A stretch of 64,000 nucleotides of DNA from Algoriphagus resistens (GTDB taxonomy: Bacteria; Bacteroidota; Bacteroidia; Cytophagales; Cyclobacteriaceae): NCBI RefSeq assembly GCF_001442615.1, contig NZ_LMXN01000018.1, positions 1 through 64,000 of the forward strand, given 5' to 3'. A program made the position numbers and the translations under genes. Within the stretch, counting starts at the first letter, position 1. Each line of letters begins with the position of its first letter. The notes under the pieces were generated by a model. It searched no databases, was not told the origin of the DNA, and worked only from the letters and a program-made list of their open reading frames with translations. Positions 1 through 57,984 of the stretch are shown here, piece by piece.

Positions 1-1
1 C

Positions 2-406
2 CATTGCCTTGCACAGGCAATGGGCGATGTTTCGTTGGGTGCATTTTACAGTATGCTTGAATATAAGTCCAATTGGAACGATAGGGCATTCGTTAAAATC
101 GACCGATGGTTCCCATCAAGCAAAAGCTGTTCAACCTGTGGATGGATAAAACAAGACTTAACCCTTTCCATAAGAGCGTGGGTCTGTGGATCTTGTGGTG
201 AGATTCATGATAGGGATGTCAATGCGGCAAAGGAGAACATCTTAACACAAGGTATAAACGTATTGTCTGGTTGTGGGATACAGTCGGACACAAAACAAAA
301 ACGGGATGAGGCGTTGCCATTGGGCGAGTCTATGATCCCCGAAGCCCAACCCATCGGCTCCGGCCGTGGGTGGGTAATTCACCTAGTAAATCTCGGGCAC
401 TTATAG
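2..406 (+). CDS. tnpB: IS200/IS605-type TnpB, C-terminal part (cut by window edge)
   Basis: C-terminal third of a TnpB, the RNA-guided nuclease of IS200/IS605-type elements. The frame is open from base 2, so the 5' part lies outside the window. Visible are the zinc ribbon, with cysteine pairs CSTCG and CGSCG about 17 residues apart, preceded by the typical block FPSSKSC and followed by HDRDVNAAKENI, which carries the last RuvC acidic residue. After that the protein runs into a poorly conserved tail ending at 406. In this family the 3' end of the gene overlaps the guide omega-RNA and the right end of the element. A short inverted repeat near 369-383 (GGTG and CACC arms) could belong to that end, but this is weak. 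A second, inverted fragment of the same gene type lies at 56532-56739. Confidence 0.85.
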   Translation, partial: HCLAQAMGDVSLGAFYSMLEYKSNWNDRAFVKIDRWFPSSKSCSTCGWIKQDLTLSIRAWVCGSCGEIHDRDVNAAKENILTQGINVLSGCGIQSDTKQKRDEALPLGESMIPEAQPIGSGRGWVIHLVNLGHL

Positions 407-6902: not shown

Positions 6903-7060
6903 AGGGCCGAAAGCCCAAGCTATTAAAGCCCAGCTCGATAGAGCTGGGCAATAGAAAAGACAAAAACTCGCCATAAGCTCTGAAAGAGCGGAATCCGACG
7001 TACGCATGTTTCTTTAACCACAAATATTCCGCAAAGGGCTCGGCTACTATTTTTAATGAT
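6903..7060. repeat. REP-like palindromic element, copy B
   Basis: Stem GCCCAGCTC (6928-6936) and GAGCTGGGC (6941-6949), loop GATA. It is followed by CTCTGAAAGAGCG near 6978 and TTCCGCAAAGGG near 7028, matching copy A. The remaining part of the gap up to the cydA start at 7254 holds no clear promoter consensus or other gene. Confidence 0.6.
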
Positions 7061-33253: not shown

Positions 33254-35623
33254 ATGCTAAAACATCAACTTATTCTTATCTATAGAAATCTCCGAAAGGA
33301 CAAAAGTACTTTTCTGATCAATCTCATCGGGCTTTCCACAGGCCTTGCAAGTGTCCTGCTGATCTTTCTTTGGGTCAATGATGAACTTCAGATTGACAAA
33401 GGGTATGCTACAGATTCACAACTCTATCAAGTGTTGGAAAATGTGGATCAGGCTGGTGGAATGATCACCAGGGAAACCACCGCTGGACCTACTGCACAAG
33501 GATTGAAAGATGACTTTCCTGAAGTGGAATATGCAGTGACCACATTTTCCAATAATATCAACAGTAGTATCCTGTCAGTAGAGGATCACGATATAGCCGC
33601 CCGAAAGCTATATGCCAGTGCTGATTTTTTTAAACTTTTCCCCTACAAAATCACTCAAGGCAATAAGGAAGAAATTAAGTCAGCCCCCAACACGATTGTT
33701 ATTTCTGAGAGTTTAGCTGTCAAACTTTTTGGTTCTTCTGAGAATGCAGTGGGCAAAGTGGTAGAGTGGGACCATGAAAAGGATCTGACTGTTGCTGGAG
33801 TATTTGAAGACCTACCGTCCAGAACATCCATGAAGTTTGATTTTGTGATGTCATTTGAGGATTTCTGGACTGAAAACGAATGGGTGCAAAGTTGGGGAAA
33901 TACTGCACCAACCACTTTTGTCCTGTTAAGGGAAGGAACTAATGTGGATGAATTTAATGCCAAAATCAAGGATTATGTAAAAACCAAGACTGAGGGAGAC
34001 GTCACGCATAGATCCCAATTTGTGGCTAAATACTCAGACAGGTACTTACATGGTACCTACGAAAATGGAATACAAACAGGCGGCAGAATATCCTATGTGA
34101 AGCTATTCTCCGTTATTGCCATTTTCATTTTGGTGATTGCATGCATCAACTTCATGAACCTTTCCACTGCCAAAGCATCCAAACGAATCAAAGAGGTGGG
34201 AATAAAAAAGGCTGTAGGTGCAAGACGGGGAGAATTGATAGCTCAGTATCTAGGAGAGTCCACTATGATGGCGTTTCTGTCGCTTTTGTTGGGATTGTTA
34301 TTGGTTATTTTGCTTTTGCCCCAATTCAATATCATTACCGAGAAGCAACTTTCTCTTGATTTCAGCCCTATGCTGATAATGGCAATCCTTGCCATAGTAT
34401 TGGTCACTGGTCTGATCGCGGGAAGTTACCCGGCACTGCATCTTTCTGGTTTTAGCCCTTCTACGGTTTTGAAGGGGAAAATCAGCAGTGCTGCAGGAGA
34501 GCTGTGGATCAGAAAGGGATTGGTCGTATTTCAGTTTGCGCTTTCAGTGATTCTAATCGTCTCAGTCTGGGTGGTGTACTTGCAGATAGAATATATACAA
34601 ACTGAGAATCTGGGTTATGAAAAAGATAATGTTCTACTGATTAATAAAATAGGGGAGCTAGGGGATACCGATAAAATGGAAGCCTTTATTTCTGAGCTGA
34701 AGGCTGTCCCGGGAGTAGTGGGTGCTACCAGTTCCGGCCATGATATGACAGGGCATAATGGAGGTACTTACGGAATCCAGTGGCCGGGCAAAGACCCGAA
34801 TGACAAGACGGAGTTCGAGCGTATGGCGGTCAATTACGGTATGATTGAGATGATGGGGATTCAGATGAAAGAGGGAAGGATTTTTTCCGATGAGTTTGGA
34901 ACAGAGTCAGAAAAAATCATTTTCAATCAAGCTGCTATTGAATTTATGGGAATTGAAGACCCGATAGGGAAGGTTATCAATTTATGGGGGGAAGATAAGG
35001 AGATTATTGGCGTGACTGAAGATTTCCATTTTGACTCGTTTCATGAGGTGGTCAAACCACTGTTTTTCTACTACAATCCCGGGGCAACCAATTTGGTGGC
35101 AGCGAAAATCAATGCAGGTGATGAAATAGAAACTATCAAAAATATCGAAGCGCTACATAGCAAATTCAATCCCGGATTTTTGATGGGCTATCGCTTTTTG
35201 GATGAGGATTATCAGGCACTTTATGTAGCGGAGCAACGTGTAGCTACTTTGTCAAAATATTTTGCAGCGATAGCCATATTGATCTCCTGTTTGGGACTGT
35301 TTGGCCTGGCTACATTCACAGTAGAAAGGCGGGCCAAAGAAATTGGGATCAGAAAAGTACTGGGGGCAAGTGAACTAAAAATAGTCAGCATATTATCGGG
35401 GGATTTCACCAAAATGGTTATGGTGGCAATTTTGATTGCCTTGCCACTGAGCTTCTTTATAGCTCAGGAATGGCTGTCAAGTTTTGCTTTTAAAATAGGC
35501 CTGAAATGGTGGTTCTTTATTGGAGCAGGAGCATTGACTATGCTGATTGCCTTACTAACGGTTAGTTTCCACTCCATCAAGGCTGCGCTTATGAATCCGG
35601 TGAAGAGCCTGAAGAGTGAGTGA
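33254..35623 (+). CDS. FtsX/MacB-type permease, paralogue 10 (LIYRSFKR clade)
   Basis: 789 residues, starting MLKHQLILIYRNLRKDKST. ENGIQTGGR precedes TM2, EVGIKKAVGARRGEL follows it, KEIGIRKVLGASELK follows TM6, and the tail is NPVKSLKSE. Ectodomain 2 contains SSGHDMTGHNGGTYGIQWPG, and the same MTGH...GVQWP pattern occurs in the 38509 gene, so these two are sister copies. Directly behind module 5. After its stop the DNA runs on in the string TGATGTTAGTAGC that also follows the stops of the 37876 remnant and the 41022 gene. Confidence 0.9.
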   Translation: MLKHQLILIYRNLRKDKSTFLINLIGLSTGLASVLLIFLWVNDELQIDKGYATDSQLYQVLENVDQAGGMITRETTAGPTAQGLKDDFPEVEYAVTTFSNNINSSILSVEDHDIAARKLYASADFFKLFPYKITQGNKEEIKSAPNTIVISESLAVKLFGSSENAVGKVVEWDHEKDLTVAGVFEDLPSRTSMKFDFVMSFEDFWTENEWVQSWGNTAPTTFVLLREGTNVDEFNAKIKDYVKTKTEGDVTHRSQFVAKYSDRYLHGTYENGIQTGGRISYVKLFSVIAIFILVIACINFMNLSTAKASKRIKEVGIKKAVGARRGELIAQYLGESTMMAFLSLLLGLLLVILLLPQFNIITEKQLSLDFSPMLIMAILAIVLVTGLIAGSYPALHLSGFSPSTVLKGKISSAAGELWIRKGLVVFQFALSVILIVSVWVVYLQIEYIQTENLGYEKDNVLLINKIGELGDTDKMEAFISELKAVPGVVGATSSGHDMTGHNGGTYGIQWPGKDPNDKTEFERMAVNYGMIEMMGIQMKEGRIFSDEFGTESEKIIFNQAAIEFMGIEDPIGKVINLWGEDKEIIGVTEDFHFDSFHEVVKPLFFYYNPGATNLVAAKINAGDEIETIKNIEALHSKFNPGFLMGYRFLDEDYQALYVAEQRVATLSKYFAAIAILISCLGLFGLATFTVERRAKEIGIRKVLGASELKIVSILSGDFTKMVMVAILIALPLSFFIAQEWLSSFAFKIGLKWWFFIGAGALTMLIALLTVSFHSIKAALMNPVKSLKSE

Positions 35624-40871: not shown

Positions 40872-40983
40872 AGTATAAAGTATTTGGTAGCAAGCGGCTA
40901 GAACCAAAAATTATGAACTAATAGATAAGAGTCCAGAATCTTGAGAAAACCTTACCACATTACAATCTTTCAACTTTCTAATC
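40872..40983. repeat. Duplicated intergenic segment, copy 1 (partner 56142)
   Basis: Aligns without gaps over 112 bases with 56142-56253 (constant offset 15270). Long identical stretches include GATAAGAGTCCAGAATC and GAGAAAACCTTACCACATTA. Both copies lie between a permease stop and the next permease start and supply most of the leader. Confidence 0.8.
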
Positions 40984-41021
40984 CACCTCGGTGGACAAGT
41001 ATTTAAAATCTTTCAATTAAA

Positions 41022-43406
41022 ATGCTCAGAACTTACCTGAAAATTGCCTGGAGAGGGCTTCTAAACAAAAAAAGCTATGCATTGATTAATATTGGTGGAT
41101 TGGCTGTTGGGCTTGCAACTGCTATATTAATTGGGCTGTGGATCTACGATGAGGTCTCTTTTAACCGCTCTCATAAACATTACAAGACCATCGCCCAGGT
41201 GATGTTGAATCAAACATTTGACGGGGAAGTTTCGACTGGTACCGGCCAAGCTTTGCAATTAGGTCCGGAACTCAACGGCAAATATGGTAACAATTTCAAC
41301 TATGTGGTCATGTCCTCAGGTACAAGAGGTTCTGTATTATCAACCGGAACAAATCCCGCTACCAAAACAGGGAGGTTTATGGGTGATGAAGCACCGGAGC
41401 TGCTTTCCCTGGATATGCTCTCAGGTTCTCGGAATGGTTTAAAAGACATCAATTCGATCTTACTTTCTGAATCGACTGCAAAGATTCTGTTTGGTGAAAA
41501 AAGTCCAGAAGGGGAAATTGTGAGGATAAATAATAAAGCTGATCTGGAGGTTACGGGTATCTACAAAGACATACCGGAAAACTCTTCTTTTGCAGATCTG
41601 GATTTTATTGCGCCTTGGAATTTCATGGTGAAAGATGAAGAATTGGCAGATAGGGTAGGCTGGGGAAACAACTGGTTTTTGGCCTATGTGCAGCTGGCAG
41701 ATCATGCGGATATGGGCAGTGTTTCAAAAGCCATAGCAGCTATAAAACGTGAGAATATAGTTCAGGAAGATGCGGATCGGATAAAGCCTGAACTTTTCTT
41801 GCATCCGATGTCTGATTGGCACCTTTATTCCAAATTTGAAAACGGAATAAGTGTCGGAGGAAGAATTGAATTTGTATGGTTGTTTGGTACGATTGGCGTA
41901 TTTGTATTGTTTTTGGCCTGCATCAATTTTATGAATCTGAGTACCGCACGATCTGAGAAAAGGGCTAAAGAAGTAGGTATTCGCAAGGTGGTAGGTTCTT
42001 TTCGAAGTCAGCTGATAAGCCAGTTTTTCAGCGAGTCATTAGTCGTGACCTTTTTGGCATTATTCTGCTCAGTCTTCTTGGTCTACCTTTCGTTGCCTTG
42101 GTTTAATGAAGTCTCGGGCAAAAGTATCTTGCTACCATGGAACAATTGGTTGTTTTGGGTGGTGATCGTTGGCTTTACTGTACTTACCGGACTTATTGCG
42201 GGTAGCCTACCCGCTTTTTACTTTTCCTCATTCAAGCCGATCTCAGTTCTGAAGGGGACTTTCAAGGTAGGTAAATTTGCTGCACTTCCGCGAAAGGCTC
42301 TGGTGATAATCCAGTTTACAGTCTCGATCACGCTCATTATCGGGACGATCATCGTTTACCAGCAAATTCAGTTTGCCAAGAATAGACCTGTGGGCTATGG
42401 AAAAGAAGGTCTGGTCAGCATACCTATTAAAACTGCCGCGGTCAAAGATCAATTTGAGGCCATCAGAAATGATCTGATAGCAACCGGGATGGTAAATGAA
42501 GCGGCATTGTCGCAAAGTTCAATTACCAACACATGGACTACCAATAGCGGTTTTGATTGGAGAGGAAAGGATCCAGGAATGCAGGATGTGGTGATAACAG
42601 CTGCTATAAGTCATGAGTTTGGAAAAGTTGTGGATTGGCAAATTGTAGAGGGGAGGGACTTTTCTAGAGACTTTGCATCTGATTCATCTGGTTTTATTCT
42701 AAATCAGGCAGCAGTCGAGTACATGGGTTTTGAAGACCCGATCGGTGAAACCATCAAGGCTTTTGACCGGAGTTATACTGTAATTGGTGTAGTAGAAAAT
42801 ATGGTGACCCAGTCGCTATATGAGCCTGTAAAACAAGCGGCTTTTTACATCGATTCTTTCAATAGAACAAGGCTTATCAATGTAAAAATCAATCCAGATG
42901 TCAGCGTTACCGAAGCTTTGGCAGAAATAGGAGAAGTGTTCAAAAAACATGATCCATCAGTACCGTTTGAATATAGTCTAGCAGATGATGAGTTTGCCGC
43001 TAAATATTTATTTGAGGAAAGAATCGGGAAACTTACAGGCTTCTTTGCTGTCCTGGCTTTGTTGATCAGTTGCCTGGGACTTTTCGGGTTAGCCTCATTT
43101 ATTGCCGAGAAGCGAACCAAGGAACTGGGGATCCGCAAAGTATTGGGAGCTTCAATAAGTAGTCTTTGGAGAATGCTTTCCTATGAGTTTGTCTTACTTG
43201 TGGTTATTTCATGTCTGATTGCTATTCCTGTATCCTACAGCTATTTGCGTGGTTGGCTTGACCAGTTTGAATATAGAGTTCCATTGTATTGGTGGGTATT
43301 TGGAGTCGCAGGATTAGGAGCCATGGTGATTACATTATTAACCGTCAGTTTCCAGTCCATCAAAGCTGCCCTGATGAATCCAGTGGAGAGTCTGAAGAGT
43401 GAGTGA
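41022..43406 (+). CDS. FtsX/MacB-type permease, paralogue 12
   Basis: 794 residues, starting MLRTYLKIAWRGLLNKK. TM1 region YALINIGGLAVGLATAILIG is close to that of paralogue 3. It has ENGISVGGR before TM2, AKEVGIRKVVGSFRSQL after it, KELGIRKVLGAS after TM6 (Leu for Ile) and the tail NPVESLKSE. Ectodomain 2 shows QSSITNTWTTNSGFDW, aligned with the SPIT block of paralogues 3 and 9, so these three form one clade. Reads on from paralogue 11 after a 161-base gap that carries no module. Confidence 0.9.
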   Translation: MLRTYLKIAWRGLLNKKSYALINIGGLAVGLATAILIGLWIYDEVSFNRSHKHYKTIAQVMLNQTFDGEVSTGTGQALQLGPELNGKYGNNFNYVVMSSGTRGSVLSTGTNPATKTGRFMGDEAPELLSLDMLSGSRNGLKDINSILLSESTAKILFGEKSPEGEIVRINNKADLEVTGIYKDIPENSSFADLDFIAPWNFMVKDEELADRVGWGNNWFLAYVQLADHADMGSVSKAIAAIKRENIVQEDADRIKPELFLHPMSDWHLYSKFENGISVGGRIEFVWLFGTIGVFVLFLACINFMNLSTARSEKRAKEVGIRKVVGSFRSQLISQFFSESLVVTFLALFCSVFLVYLSLPWFNEVSGKSILLPWNNWLFWVVIVGFTVLTGLIAGSLPAFYFSSFKPISVLKGTFKVGKFAALPRKALVIIQFTVSITLIIGTIIVYQQIQFAKNRPVGYGKEGLVSIPIKTAAVKDQFEAIRNDLIATGMVNEAALSQSSITNTWTTNSGFDWRGKDPGMQDVVITAAISHEFGKVVDWQIVEGRDFSRDFASDSSGFILNQAAVEYMGFEDPIGETIKAFDRSYTVIGVVENMVTQSLYEPVKQAAFYIDSFNRTRLINVKINPDVSVTEALAEIGEVFKKHDPSVPFEYSLADDEFAAKYLFEERIGKLTGFFAVLALLISCLGLFGLASFIAEKRTKELGIRKVLGASISSLWRMLSYEFVLLVVISCLIAIPVSYSYLRGWLDQFEYRVPLYWWVFGVAGLGAMVITLLTVSFQSIKAALMNPVESLKSE

Positions 43407-43581: not shown

Positions 43582-46023
43582 ATGCTATACCACTACCTCA
43601 AAATTGCAATCCGGAATCTTTGGCGAAATAAGATGTTTTCGTTGATCAATATTCTAGGGCTGTCTATAGGAATGGCAGCCTGTCTTCTCATTTTCAGGTA
43701 TGTGAATTTTGAACTGAGTTATGATGAGTTTCGTAAACCCACACTTTATCGCGTAACAAGCTCAGCATACCTGAACGGAGAGATGGTTGAGAATCGGGCC
43801 CAAACTGCTCCTGCACTTGCTCCCGCTATGGAAAGAGATATTCCCGAGGTAATTCAGGCAGCCAGATTAGTCCATACTGCACCATTAATGTCGGATCCCG
43901 TTATCCAAGTGGGTGACCGCAGTTTCCATGAGGAAAAGATTTACTATGCTGATTCCTCTTTTTTGGAGATGTTTTCGTACCGGATGGTGCAGGGCAACTC
44001 TGACAAGGCGCTTTCCAAGCCAGGCTACGTGGTGTTATCTGAATCAATGGCCAAGAAATATTTCCCCGATCTTGATAGGCTGTTGGGGCAATCTATCACT
44101 TTTTTTATGGGAGATCGGGGACAGATGCAGTTGGAAGTCAGTGGGATATTTGAGGATATTCCACACAATTCCCATCTTAAGACTGATTTTATCATCTCCT
44201 TCAATTCCATCCCCTGGAATCTTGAAGAAAACTGGGATTGGGGGAATTTTTATAATTATGTCGAAATTTTACCAGAAAGCGATCCTGGAGTTGTAAAGCG
44301 CAAGCTCTATGATATATTGGAAAAATACAGGGGAGAAACATTGGCCGAATTGCGAAAGGAGGGGTACAATCAGGAATTTGACCTTCAGCCCATCCGACAA
44401 ATACATCTTGATTCAAATCTGGAAGCAGAAGCGGAAGTAAACGGAAGCCGTCGGACCGTCTCTTTTCTTACACTTATCGCATTTTTTATATTGATTATTG
44501 CCTGGATCAACTACCTGAACCTGACAACTGCCAAGGCAATGGAACGGGCCAAAGAGATTGGGATCAGAAAAGTGGTTGGGTCAAACAGAGCGCAATTGAT
44601 CCTCCAATTTATGGCAGAATCTTTTTTGGTCAATTTGGTAGCAGCGGTACTGGCAATTGTGGTTTCACAGCTTTTGATGACTCCTTTTCAAACACTTACG
44701 TTGGGGTACTTTGCCCCGATATTTGATGCAGAGCTGGGAATAGGCATCATAGGCTTGTTTTTGCTAGGGACTTTTTTTTCCGGAATTTACCCGGCAGTGG
44801 CATTGTCGTATCAACCTGTTCAGATGATTAAGGGAAGTCTTCCAAACTTCGGAAAGGGAGCTTTGCTGAGAAAAGGACTGGTCGCTTTTCAGTTTGCCAC
44901 TTCCATTGCTTTGATAGCAGGGACCCTAGGTGTACGAGAACAGTTGGTTTTTATGCAACAACAGGATATAGGGATGGATATAGATCAGATCCTTATCGTG
45001 AAAGGGCCGGGCAGCAAGGATTCTACTTATCAAAACCAATTGAACTTTTTTAAAAGCGAGGTGCAAAAGTTGCCCGCAGTGCAGCAAGTAAGTGTATCAT
45101 CCAATATTCCGGGACAACAATTGGGCTGGGGTAGGGCCTTTTATCAACCTGCAAAAACAGAAAATAGAAAAAGCGTTAATATCGTCGCTGTGGATGAGGA
45201 TTTTTTTGGATTATATGGTACTGAATTCTTGGCAGGCCGCAATTTTTCGCACGAGTTTTCTTCTGATCGCGGAGCCGTCATTTTTAATGAAACAGCCATT
45301 AGGCAGCTGGGATTCAATAGTCCTGAGGAAGCGGTCCAGCAAACGGTAATCTGGGATGAAGCGGACAATGATCAGCATCCGAAAGAAATTCTTGGGGTAA
45401 TTCGGGATTTCAATCAGGAATCCCTGCACAAGGAAGTGGGACCTATGGTCTTTGCGCTGAAAGAATACCTGAATGCCCCATGGGCTGGGGAATATTATTC
45501 TCTCAAAATTGCATCTAGTGATTATCCAAAGGCATTAAAACAAATACAGAGCAGCTGGAACCAAGCGTTTCCGGGGAGCCCATTTGACTACTTTTTTCTT
45601 GATGATTATTTCAATAGCCAATATCAGTCTGACAGGCAGTTCGCAAAAATTTTCAGTCTGTTTGCCAGTTTGGCCATAGTGATTGCATGCTTGGGTCTTT
45701 TCGGCCTATCATCTTATATGACCTTGCAACGTACCAAAGAAATTGGGATACGAAAGGTTTTAGGAGCAACTGTCTTCTCTGTGGTGAGCATGCTTTCCAG
45801 GGATTTTCTCAAACTAGTGGGGGTAGTCAGTATAATTATCCTGCCTGTCATATACTTCTTTATGCAAAAATGGCTTAAAAACTTTGCCTATCAGATGGAA
45901 ATCAGCTGGTGGATGCTGATTCTACCCGTGGTACTGGTCTGGTTTATGGCTCTGGTGACCGTTAGTTTTCAAACGGTTAAAACGGCACTGGAAAATCCTG
46001 TCAAGAGTCTGAGAAGTGAGTAG
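43582..46023 (+). CDS. FtsX/MacB-type permease, paralogue 13
   Basis: 813 residues, starting MLYHYLKIAIRNLWRNK. No ENGxxGGR motif. The post-TM2 segment reads WINYLNLTTAKAMERAKEIG and then IRKVVGS, resembling paralogue 4 in having NYxNLTTA. The post-TM6 motif is KEIGIRKVLGAT and the tail NPVKSLRSE. The TM4 region is altered: SGIYPAVALSYQPVQMIKGS replaces the usual GSYPALxLSxFxPxxVLKG, with the phenylalanine lost. It is third in the unit from module 6 (175-base gap). The next module, 46146, lies 122 bases after its stop. Confidence 0.9.
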   Translation: MLYHYLKIAIRNLWRNKMFSLINILGLSIGMAACLLIFRYVNFELSYDEFRKPTLYRVTSSAYLNGEMVENRAQTAPALAPAMERDIPEVIQAARLVHTAPLMSDPVIQVGDRSFHEEKIYYADSSFLEMFSYRMVQGNSDKALSKPGYVVLSESMAKKYFPDLDRLLGQSITFFMGDRGQMQLEVSGIFEDIPHNSHLKTDFIISFNSIPWNLEENWDWGNFYNYVEILPESDPGVVKRKLYDILEKYRGETLAELRKEGYNQEFDLQPIRQIHLDSNLEAEAEVNGSRRTVSFLTLIAFFILIIAWINYLNLTTAKAMERAKEIGIRKVVGSNRAQLILQFMAESFLVNLVAAVLAIVVSQLLMTPFQTLTLGYFAPIFDAELGIGIIGLFLLGTFFSGIYPAVALSYQPVQMIKGSLPNFGKGALLRKGLVAFQFATSIALIAGTLGVREQLVFMQQQDIGMDIDQILIVKGPGSKDSTYQNQLNFFKSEVQKLPAVQQVSVSSNIPGQQLGWGRAFYQPAKTENRKSVNIVAVDEDFFGLYGTEFLAGRNFSHEFSSDRGAVIFNETAIRQLGFNSPEEAVQQTVIWDEADNDQHPKEILGVIRDFNQESLHKEVGPMVFALKEYLNAPWAGEYYSLKIASSDYPKALKQIQSSWNQAFPGSPFDYFFLDDYFNSQYQSDRQFAKIFSLFASLAIVIACLGLFGLSSYMTLQRTKEIGIRKVLGATVFSVVSMLSRDFLKLVGVVSIIILPVIYFFMQKWLKNFAYQMEISWWMLILPVVLVWFMALVTVSFQTVKTALENPVKSLRSE

Positions 46024-51198: not shown

Positions 51199-53577
51199 AT
51201 GCTTCGAAACCACCTTAAAATTGCCTGGAGAAACATACAGAGAAACAAGGTTTTCTCATTTATCAATATCGGTGGACTATCGCTTGGTTTGGCTTGCTGT
51301 ATGCTGATTCTTCTTTACGTGAAGGACGAAGCGAGCTTTGACAAATTCCAGGAAAATGGTGAAAATCTCTATCGGATTAAGGTCACCATGTCCAATGCTG
51401 AGGGTTCAAATACCATAGCAAGCACGAACGCTATTCATGGTCCTACATTCCAGGAGGAAATCCCCGAGATCACTGAGGTAATCCGTACCCAAAGTCAGCC
51501 TTTCGTTATGAGAAAAGGTGACGAACTGCTTAGCACCAATGTCCTGTTTGCGGATCCGGAATTTTTCGAGGTCTTTACCCTTCCCCTGCTGTATGGGGAT
51601 CCAAGTGCCGTACTTTCTGATATTGGTTCTATTGTGATTACAGAGGGTATGGCGAAAACTTATTTCAACACAACTGATGCTGTTGGGAAAGTGATAGAGC
51701 TTAAGATCAAAGAGGAATTCAAACCGTTCACTGTATCGGGAGTGGCTAAAACCATTCCCCAAAATTCATCGCTTCAGTTCGATTCTGTAATCTCTTTTGC
51801 CTTCGAGGAGGTAAATGGCTGGACGGATACCGAATGGTTGGGGTTTTATATGAATACATTCGTCCAGCTGGATGAGCGGGCAAATTTGAAAGAAGTTACG
51901 GGGAAAATGAATAAGGTCTTTGAGCGCAATGTGGCGCAGGAACTGAAGGATTCTCCCGGTTTTGACAGCAAGATAAGTTTTGGACTGCAGCCTTTTATGG
52001 ATATTCATCTGGATGCAGAAATCGGCAGCGGCAGAAATGGACTGGAGAAGGCCAGTAGCCCGGTATATTCTTACATATTATCTGGCATAGGATTGTTTTT
52101 ATTGGTGATTGCCTGCATCAATTTTGTGAATCTGGCTGTGGCAAAGACTCTCAAGCGGGCCAAGGAAATCGGGATCAGAAAAGTAATCGGCAGCCACAGG
52201 AGACAGTTGATTTTACAGTTTCTCACCGAGTCCTATTTAATGACATTCATTGCTTTGGTGCTGGCATTTGTTATCACACAGCTTTCTCTTTCTGCATTCA
52301 ATGAGCTAGCTGATAAGCAACTAGCGCTTTCTTATTTATTGGACTTTCAGTTGATTTCCCTTTTCGTTGTTTTGTTTGTAATCACTGGTATGGTGGCAGG
52401 ATTTTATCCGGCTTTGGTGTTTTCAGGCTTTAGTCCATCGAAGAGTTTGTATAATCGGGCGAAGCTGTTGCAGCAGAACTTCCTGACCAAAGCCCTGGTC
52501 GTGTTTCAGTTCACGCTTTCTATTTGCCTGGTAGTTGGGACTATCGTGATTTTCAGTCAATTCAATTACCTGACTAAGGTAGATCTGGGTTACAACGATG
52601 ATAATCTGATGAAACTAAGCGGTCTTCGCGGTATAAAAGGGGGCATAAATGGAATCAAACAGGAAATCCAGTCACTTCCAGGCGTAGAATCTGTGAGTGC
52701 ATTTAACGGAAACTATAATGGAACCGGCGCCAAAGTAGGAAATGAGCAGATAGATTTTGGCTATATCGGCGTGGATGATAATTTCTTGGGTACCATGGAG
52801 ATTACATTGATTGAGGGAAGAAATTTCTCCGTGGAGTACAGCACTGACCCCACCGATGCGATTGTAGTGAATGAGGCATTTTTGCACGAGTTGGGCTGGA
52901 CTTCCGGGGTGGGGAAGGAGGTGAACTTTGAGTGGAAAAAAAAGAAGATGTACATCATCGGCGTAGTGGAAGACTATCATTATGCATCCCTGAAGGAGAA
53001 AATAGCGCCTCTTGTGATGACGCAAGATCCTAACTATGACCTGCAATCATTTTTCATCAAACTCAATCCAAACAACACTGCTGAGACAATCAAATCCATT
53101 GAAACAGTATTTAGAAAGTTCGTCCCCTATATGCCATTTTCCTACAGCTTTGAGGATCAGAATAATCTGATGAAATATGAGCGGGAGCAAAAGTGGAAGC
53201 AGATCACAACGATTGCAGCTATGCTCTCCATTTTCGTGTCTTGCATCGGACTGTTTGGTTTGGCAGCTTTCAATGCGGAGTCCAGAATCAAAGAAGTGGG
53301 TGTTCGCAAAGTTTTGGGAGCCTCTGTTGCAAGCATAGTAGCCTTGCTTTCTTCCGACTTTGTTAAACTAGTCCTGATCGCCATGTTGGCAGCATTTCCG
53401 ATTGCATACTACGGAGCCCAAGTCTGGCTGGAGGAGTTTGCCTATCAGATTGATATCCAGTGGTGGTTCTTTGGCCTTGCGGGGTTCTTGGGAATAGCTG
53501 TTGCTATGCTGACTGTAGGATTTGAAGCGTTCAAAGCGGCATTGATGAATCCTGCGAAGAGTCTGAAGAGCGAGTGA
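51199..53577 (+). CDS. FtsX/MacB-type permease, paralogue 15
   Basis: 792 residues, starting MLRNHLKIAWRNIQRNK. It has no ENGxxGGR but GRNGLEKASSPVYS before TM2. The post-TM2 segment NFVNLAVAKTLKRAKEIG, then IRKVIGSHRRQL, is rich in basic residues. The post-TM6 motif is KEVGVRKVLGAS and the tail NPAKSLKSE. Ectodomain 2 is the shortest of the long-type genes, with SAFNGNYNGTGAKVGNEQID. Directly behind module 8 and followed by paralogue 16 after 151 bases, with degenerate repeats of the GTATCAAA/GCTAGG type in the gap. Confidence 0.9.
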   Translation: MLRNHLKIAWRNIQRNKVFSFINIGGLSLGLACCMLILLYVKDEASFDKFQENGENLYRIKVTMSNAEGSNTIASTNAIHGPTFQEEIPEITEVIRTQSQPFVMRKGDELLSTNVLFADPEFFEVFTLPLLYGDPSAVLSDIGSIVITEGMAKTYFNTTDAVGKVIELKIKEEFKPFTVSGVAKTIPQNSSLQFDSVISFAFEEVNGWTDTEWLGFYMNTFVQLDERANLKEVTGKMNKVFERNVAQELKDSPGFDSKISFGLQPFMDIHLDAEIGSGRNGLEKASSPVYSYILSGIGLFLLVIACINFVNLAVAKTLKRAKEIGIRKVIGSHRRQLILQFLTESYLMTFIALVLAFVITQLSLSAFNELADKQLALSYLLDFQLISLFVVLFVITGMVAGFYPALVFSGFSPSKSLYNRAKLLQQNFLTKALVVFQFTLSICLVVGTIVIFSQFNYLTKVDLGYNDDNLMKLSGLRGIKGGINGIKQEIQSLPGVESVSAFNGNYNGTGAKVGNEQIDFGYIGVDDNFLGTMEITLIEGRNFSVEYSTDPTDAIVVNEAFLHELGWTSGVGKEVNFEWKKKKMYIIGVVEDYHYASLKEKIAPLVMTQDPNYDLQSFFIKLNPNNTAETIKSIETVFRKFVPYMPFSYSFEDQNNLMKYEREQKWKQITTIAAMLSIFVSCIGLFGLAAFNAESRIKEVGVRKVLGASVASIVALLSSDFVKLVLIAMLAAFPIAYYGAQVWLEEFAYQIDIQWWFFGLAGFLGIAVAMLTVGFEAFKAALMNPAKSLKSE

Positions 53578-53728
53578 AGATAGAGGAGAGTAACCAGTAT
53601 CAAATAGCTAGGATTTAGGAGCCAAGATGTTAGAGCCAAGAAATAAGAGGCTAGACAAGAAATATTGAATGTAGAATATCGGATGATGATTAATGAAGAT
53701 TTGGGGGGCCTTCCAACCTAATAAAACC

Positions 53729-56141: not shown

Positions 56142-56253
56142 AGTACAAAGTATCTGGTATCAAGTAGCTAGAACCGAGAACTATGAACCAAGAGATAAGA
56201 GTCCAGAATCTAGAGAAAACCTTACCACATTACAACCTTTCAACTTTCTAACC
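56142..56253. repeat. Duplicated intergenic segment, copy 2 (partner 40872)
   Basis: Gap-free counterpart of 40872-40983. Followed here by repeated pyrimidine-rich units (ATCTTTCAACTTTTCAACC) that form the leader of the 56295 remnant. Confidence 0.8.
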
Positions 56254-56294
56254 CTTAATCTTTCAACTTTTCAACCTTCCAACCTAATAAACCC

Positions 56295-56774
56295 ATGCTC
56301 AAAAATTACCTGAATATTGCTTTTCGACATTTGTGGAAGGATAGGCTTTATTCGCTGATAAATATTGTCGGACTTGCAGCAGCTACCCTATGTCTAATCC
56401 TTGCTGTGGTCTATTGGAATGATGAGCATAGTTTTGATGGCTTTCATGCCAACAATCCAAATCTATACAGAGTTACCACCACGTTCATAGATAAGAAAGG
56501 TGCTGATCCAAAAATAGTAGGAGTAACAGCCTTTATACCTTGGGTTAAGATGTTCTCCTTTGCCGCATTGACATCCCTGTCATGGATTTCACCACAAGAT
56601 CCACAGACCCACTCCCTTATGGAAAGGGTCAAGTCCTGTTTTATCCATCCACAGGCTGAACAGCTTTTGCTTGATGGGAACCACCGGTCGATTTTAACAA
56701 ATGGCCTGTCGTTCCAATTGGCCTTATATTCAAGCATACGGGGAGAGCTTATGAACCCTGAGCCTGAAGAGTAA
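56295..56774 (+). pseudogene. Permease remnant with an inverted tnpB fragment replacing its middle
   Basis: From 56295 to about 56531 the frame encodes a genuine permease N-terminus: MLKNYLNIAFRHLWKDRLYS, TM1 (about 20-42), then DEHSFDGFHANNPNLYRVTT. It then runs into the reverse complement of a tnpB 3' segment (56532-56739) and ends with CTTATGAACCC...GAGCCTGAAGAGT (56748-56772). That end matches the permease 3' ends (CTTATGAATCCGGTGAAGAG, then CCTGAAGAGT) apart from about six missing bases. About 2 kb of permease has thus been replaced while both gene ends survive. The reading frame happens to stay open, giving a 159-residue hybrid with no expected function. The following 268 bases (56775-57042) hold no feature. 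Confidence 0.85.
56532..56739 (-). mobile_element. tnpB fragment (IS200/IS605 type) inside the permease remnant
   Basis: On the minus strand this 208-bp piece encodes YKANWNDRPFVKIDRWFPSS followed by the zinc ribbon (CSACG...CGSCG), HDRDVNAAKENI and LTQGIK. It is nearly the same protein as residues about 17-80 of the tnpB piece at the left window edge, with a few substitutions such as Thr to Ala and Ala to Glu. Homology ends sharply at both sides, and no element ends or tnpA are visible. Confidence 0.85.
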
Positions 56775-57042
56775 CCCAAGTAAAGTGTTTTCCGAATCTT
56801 ATGATCCTTAAAGTAATTTACTGGCAGAAAGGCGGATAATCAAAAAATAAAGTATCCAATGCCAGAATTTCAATTATCAACATGCGCATTAAAATAAGCC
56901 AAACTTCAATTCCATAAGTAGTGTGGAAGCAGCAATAACCTGTTTTTACCCAATATCAAGGTGATAGGATCAAGAAAAATAAACCTATAATCAATATCTT
57001 TAGTCCATTCATTTATCCAAAACAGTTTTATGGGAAAATTTT

Positions 57043-57984
57043 ATGGAAAAATTCTACTTTCTTATCCTATTCCTTTTCGTACCAATGGTTCTATTTGCCC
57101 AGGAACCTGGACAGGTTAGTCTATTTGACAAGGAATTAAATCGTTTTTTGAACGTCAGGGATTTTACGGTTTCAACAGACGGTCAGGAAGCCTATTTTAC
57201 TATCCAGAGTCCAGCCCAGGATATCTCTCAGCTAGTGAAAATCGTCAAGGAAAACGGAGAGTGGTCAGAGCCTGAATTGCTGTTGTTTGGCGATCCGTAC
57301 ATGTATATGGAGCCTTATTTGACCCATGATGGACTTAGGCTTTTTTTTGCTTCTGACAGGCCGCTATTGGATTCTGATTCGGAGGGAAAAGATTTTGATA
57401 TTTGGTATCTGGAACGTCAGGACAAAGCTGCTGGGTGGTCAACTCCTATCAACCTAGGCCAGCCTGTCAACTCTGAGTTGGATGAATTTTTTCCAACACT
57501 AGCCGAAAACAATAACCTATATTTTACCTTGGATTCGCCTGAGGGATTGGGCAAGGACGATATCTACCGGAGTGTATGGGAAAATGGAAGTTATTTGGCT
57601 CCTGAGTTATTATCCGACAGCATCAACAGCAATGGCTATGAATTCAATGCTTTTATCTCTCGAAGGGAAGAATTTATTCTTTTCACTAAATACAATGAAG
57701 AAGGGGGAATGGGGAGCGGGGACTTATATCTGTCCCAAAGGAAGCCGAATGGAGAATGGGAAAAGGCAAGGAATCTGGGAATGCCCATCAACACTAAGTA
57801 CATGGAATATTGCCCTTTTTACGATGAGGAAAATGGAATTCTCTATTTTACCAGTAGAAGGAACATGTTGGTTTCTAAAGAATTTCGGGATCTTGCAGAT
57901 TTTGAGCAAACTGTCAATGAAGGTGAAAATGGTTTGAGTAAACTCTATCAGGTAAAACTGTCGATTAGGGCATTGCGCCAGTGA
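57043..57984 (+). CDS. Exported TolB-like/PD40 beta-propeller protein
   Basis: Exported protein of 313 residues with a signal peptide cut near LFAQ. The body consists of PD40 (WD40-like) blades: FTVSTDGQEAYFTI, PYLTHDGLRLFFASDRP, FFPTLAENNNLYFTLD, NAFISRREEFILFTKY and CPFYDEENGILYFTSRR recur about every 45-50 residues, suggesting a six-bladed propeller of the TolB type. In Bacteroidota such domains are often attached to OmpA or peptidoglycan-binding domains; this one is propeller only. It is monocistronic, follows the permease remnant, and has no enhancer module. The actual ligand is unknown. Confidence 0.85.
   Translation: MEKFYFLILFLFVPMVLFAQEPGQVSLFDKELNRFLNVRDFTVSTDGQEAYFTIQSPAQDISQLVKIVKENGEWSEPELLLFGDPYMYMEPYLTHDGLRLFFASDRPLLDSDSEGKDFDIWYLERQDKAAGWSTPINLGQPVNSELDEFFPTLAENNNLYFTLDSPEGLGKDDIYRSVWENGSYLAPELLSDSINSNGYEFNAFISRREEFILFTKYNEEGGMGSGDLYLSQRKPNGEWEKARNLGMPINTKYMEYCPFYDEENGILYFTSRRNMLVSKEFRDLADFEQTVNEGENGLSKLYQVKLSIRALRQ

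Follow-up and report, generated by a model that had tools for sequence, protein, structure and literature searches.

A probable MacB/FtsX-like permease pseudogene enclosing an antisense tnpB fragment in Algoriphagus resistens

Layout of the chimeric reading frame

The window analysed here is the whole 64,000-nucleotide stretch from the start of the A. resistens contig NZ_LMXN01000018.1. At 56295-56774 on its plus strand lies an ORF of 159 codons, which runs from ATG to TAA and, as a first reading of the sequence alone had described, stays free of stops across all its joints. In order, the locus comprises the start of a permease gene, an antisense interior piece of a tnpB element, approximately 7 unassigned bases (56740-56746), a permease tail, approximately 11 bases and, from 56784 on, the right half of a dispersed repeat. 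These features, together with a second tnpB copy in the same window, are:

56295..56529, plus strand: what is left of the 5' end of a MacB/FtsX-type ABC permease gene (codons 1-78); 54% identical to an Emticicia agri permease across 78 aa and 54% identical to the permease of genome G168 across 69 aa
56530..56739, minus strand: antisense interior tnpB fragment (presumed IS200/IS605-type; C-terminal TNB/zinc-ribbon part) lacking both element ends; 86-95% identity to other copies, PF07282 at 4.9e-21
56747..56772, plus strand: 3' tail of a permease gene (LMNP..., five bases missing inside); local alignment score 31
56784..56850, plus strand: right half of a dispersed genus repeat (about 160 bp); aligns from 56784-56785 with five of the seven copies tried
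1..382, plus strand: second tnpB copy, 3' part with the right end, cut by the contig start; 94% identity to element positions 1342-1719

The permease remnant, its tail and its relatives

The permease origin assigned to the 5' part by the sequence-only reading is borne out by the full-length alignment of codons 1-78 with the N-terminus of an intact 803-aa permease of Emticicia agri, the best named relative, and by an intact 794-aa permease in G168. Against permeases, the chimera aligns only through its first 78 residues and a short C-terminal motif, so that of approximately 800 codons in intact homologues 78 and a short tail are retained and about 90% of the gene is gone. Correspondingly, the 159-aa product matched no Pfam family at E <= 0.01, neither MacB_PCD nor FtsX being detected, whereas both domains (PF12704, PF02687) were found in the 814-aa product of the upstream gene (53693). 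The remnant thus resembles MacB/FtsX-type ABC permeases in its two extremities and differs from them in what is missing between.

The 3' tail had been put at about 30 bases; a tail is indeed present, with a match that covers about 26 bases (56747-56772). Aligned with the permease 3' end at 35623, it scores 31 with one mismatch and five gapped bases in two gaps. This score was reached by 3 of 20000 shuffles of the tail and by 11 of 20000 random window stretches that excluded permease ends, some of which may be true relatives, as this control was drawn from a permease-rich window. A match by chance, which the sequence-only reading had named as the outcome that would undo it, is therefore unlikely, although the score by itself does not settle the matter. 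The tail ends short of the usual final codons: after LMNP the frame departs from the ancestral one at the gapped bases and finishes with EPEE and a stop that lies in the shifted frame.

Intact homologues of the flanks can thus be aligned, as had been proposed, but none was found at the same place. In a search of 72 congeners, including the window's own genome (G000), at E <= 1e-15, matches occurred only in G000 and G037, and the 71 others yielded no close relative; the G037 match (42%) was rejected as an orthologue of the gutted permease, since it is the orthologue of window gene 51199-53577. A sample of 196 genomes of the family, with up to 29 candidates scored per genome, yielded matches at 1e-17 in G000 and G168 alone. 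The gutted permease gene therefore looks lineage-specific among the genomes compared.

The orthologue of the upstream gene is followed in G037 and G043 by an unrelated ORF, with no relative of the gutted permease, and in G021 by an orthologue of window gene 43582-46023. The neighbour at 57043-57984 was also tried as an anchor, and no window-type permease occurs in the 16-18 kb fetched for its best relatives, those in G019 and G021; as a consequence, an empty site is not obtainable by synteny. No pre-insertion or intermediate form was found in the genomes compared.

The surroundings of the locus are rich in permeases. Over 2455-62938, 17 permease-like ORFs (about 800 aa) form a long array on one strand, interrupted by a few other genes; these long ORFs have permease-like starts and 3' ends, and the one at 53693 is the member that was put to Pfam. 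The spacer 5' of the gutted gene (56200-56254) is 95% identical over 55 bases to 40930-40984, which lies 5' of the permease at 41022. Elsewhere in the window, 6903-6948 on the minus strand matches the Rfam Acido-Lenti-1 RNA with 38.8 bits against a cut-off of 37.

The tnpB fragment and its copies in the genome

The reversed tnpB piece, first measured at 208 bp, is 210 bp long and lies on the minus strand as described. Its antisense ORF carries the Cas12f1-like_TNB domain (PF07282), i.e., the C-terminal TNB/zinc-ribbon part of TnpB. The same type of element stands, as had been noticed, at the left window edge (51-258, 93% identity); identity is 92% to a copy in contig 18 and 86-95% to the remaining matches in the genome that span 119 bases or more. 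We take the element to be of the IS200/IS605 type, an assignment that draws on the TnpB domain and on hairpin-like ends judged by eye. A full element, which the sequence-only reading had advised looking for, does exist: a full-span copy is found at G000:C7:23810-25540, its tnpB frame bearing one internal stop. Used as a 1.73-kb query, this copy has at least 57 matches in the genome (40 of 66 candidates scored); among the matches scored only the query itself spans the whole query, and some of the others are cut by contig ends.

Within this element of about 1.72 kb, the fragment corresponds to positions 1392-1598, with the left and the right end both absent, whereas alignments of other copies reach 1-6 at the left end and 1719-1727 at the right. 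No other copy read consists of an interior piece alone, except for pieces cut by a contig end. Recurrent fragment edges were considered and set aside, because on the right-end side the breaks in other copies fall near 1553-1585 and not at 1598; one copy (C12:495k) that resumes at 1387, near 1392, was taken as a coincidence.

The missing ends bear directly on the number of events. After a plain insertion and a single deletion, one flank should still show an element end, and none is present. Consequently, each flank needs its own junction, or the piece arrived as one templated patch. The two events first proposed (an insertion and a deletion) are thus too few; the accompanying option of a template switch stands, in that patch and stepwise deletion are not distinguishable at this locus. 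In such a one-step repair, a break would have removed the permease middle and a 210-bp copy of tnpB sequence from another site would have closed the gap, which would explain both a fragment with neither element end and the few bases of no matched origin at the right junction. However, the assembly holds no near-identical donor, the best matches having 93% identity across almost the full piece and, at contig edges, 95% across 151 and 119 bases, so that the event would have to be old, or the donor lost or unassembled. Given also how frequent stepwise internal deletion is in this genome (see below), we regard templated repair as unlikely.

A number of contigs in this assembly break off within tnpB copies, which raises the question of whether a permease stretch was joined to a collapsed tnpB repeat during assembly. 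Such an artefact is very unlikely: none of the other copies compared is more than 95% identical to the fragment, which sits within an 88-kb contig, with a permease tail on its far side.

Internal deletions in the element copies

The genome contains at least seven copies of the element with internal deletions, and 11 junctions were read in seven of them: C6:550, C12:348k (two), C12:495k (three), C43, C4 (two), C13 and C6:136k. This count leaves aside the gaps in L066/L079 (between 119 and 845), L069, L071 and L080. The aligned blocks overlap at eight of the 11 junctions, by 1, 2, 2, 2, 4, 4, 9 and 9 bases, values partly inflated by alignment extension (for instance, at C4 a), and lie 3, 6 and 19 bases apart at the other three. 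Judged by eye, the printed parents have exactly 9 bases in common at C12:495k b, and 4 bases are common to the copy and both parents at C12:348k a and at C6:136k. In a random-breakpoint control of 20000 trials, exactly 4 shared bases occurred in 1.3% and exactly 7 in 0.035%. Not every one of the 11 junctions counts as independent: C4 a, C12:495k a and the edge of contig 23 all resume at element position ~201 with like sequence, and hence probably derive from one deletion that was later copied.

Stepwise internal deletion is accordingly common in this genome, and a reasonable model for its element copies is that they lost sequence between short shared stretches. For the permease locus, this same-genome precedent favours stepwise deletion over a patch.

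The dispersed repeat behind the tail

The sequence from 56784 to 56850 aligns from 56784-56785 with copies of a repeat of about 160 bp (L014 1405-1565) in G037, G019 (two), G021 and G009; the two own-genome copies tried (L100, L106) gave matches of 15-29 bases only. Five congeners (G019, G021, G037, G042 and G009) each have at least 40 to 45 matches to the repeat (40 first-look candidates scored); of the nine chosen genomes compared, the window's own has eight and G016 seven, and G014 and G043 gave none. Its ends pair with each other, so as to form a fold. At gathering score, Rfam returned no family for the locus or the repeat, and the top matches of a literature search for a dispersed palindromic repeat, made under a guessed genus name, concern organelle genomes. 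The repeat half that begins at 56784 is a further broken edge beside the tail.

A probably decayed gene with an open frame

Homology establishes the identity of the parts, from which we infer the order and number of events. The locus is probably a pseudogene, in which a MacB/FtsX-like permease was entered by a tnpB element and trimmed by successive deletions, the frame remaining open by chance. The ancestral gene would have adjoined the permease array, and a tnpB element, presumably of the IS200/IS605 type, would have entered it in antisense orientation. Illegitimate deletions would then have taken both element ends and the permease middle, about 2.1 kb for a gene that matched its relatives in length. 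They would also have shortened the 3' tail and the repeat that follows, leaving the permease start, a scrap of tnpB and the tail as survivors.

The open frame invites another reading, namely that the chimera encodes a novel small membrane protein, with one N-terminal membrane segment and an antisense-tnpB tail, kept by selection. That the frame is open across every joint speaks for it. In the register used by the chimera, however, three of the six other tnpB copies that span the stretch are likewise stop-free (L004, C13 and C12a), whereas L003, the left window edge and C12b have one stop each, C12b with a 2-base gap in addition; the register was worked out by hand, and the count leaves out five partial copies (C16, C15, C6, C5 and C22). 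Open passage through the tnpB piece thus requires no selection, and the openness of the chimera is probably luck. Moreover, the tail departs from the ancestral frame at the gapped bases, and neither tnpB junction is crossed by any of the matches listed from the other genomes in a set of 59 congeners that includes the window's own, with at most nine candidates scored per genome. We therefore hold a selected membrane protein to be highly improbable. Still more far-fetched, to the point of being barely credible, is the compound version, in which a single template-switch repair with a tnpB patch gave rise to a fusion protein that is expressed and has since been retained by the cell. The retained open frame is without demonstrable meaning.

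Comparable decay is described elsewhere. The parts of a survey of Halanaerobium hydrogeniformans that deal with IS200/IS605 elements describe a genome that harbours numerous copies, among them disrupted and fragmented ORFs, a tnpA form of which only the 5' and 3' ends persist, and one truncated right end (PMC7290912). In its many copies with fragmented ORFs the present genome is alike; the scrap here differs from what those parts describe in lacking both ends and in lying inside a permease gene remnant. Truncated elements whose left and right boundaries are undetectable or missing appear in the relevant portion of a further report (PMC9956272). With these fragmented and boundary-less elements as described there, the locus can be classed as an ordinary pseudogene with a scrap of a mobile element. 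It likewise resembles, as far as the accounts drawn on go, prokaryote pseudogenes with mobile-element remnants (PMC522871, PMC3899985) in being a disabled gene, here with such a remnant, and differs from them in that its frame happens to stay open. Most likely, to go by the sequence, the locus represents ordinary gene decay, a lineage-specific dead permease gene. As a single locus it carries little weight, a mobile element and a redundant gene rotting together. The internally deleted copies, of which some show microhomology where their parts are joined, could provide a modest data set for studying the trimming of such elements.

Two further peculiarities of the copies may be added. At three contig edges (G000:C42:1-200, G000:C14:1-196 and the end of G000:C3; L076, L081 and L082), about 50 bp of common foreign sequence is fused at element position ~1572 to the tnpB right end, and the sequence beyond differs. 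A 31-base pattern of this foreign sequence occurs only at these three places, with up to three mismatches allowed; perhaps it belongs to another multi-copy element, one in which this right end is also present. Finally, unless the assembly is at fault, the copy at G000:C16:1-1982 (L057) contains the interior 743-1203 twice.
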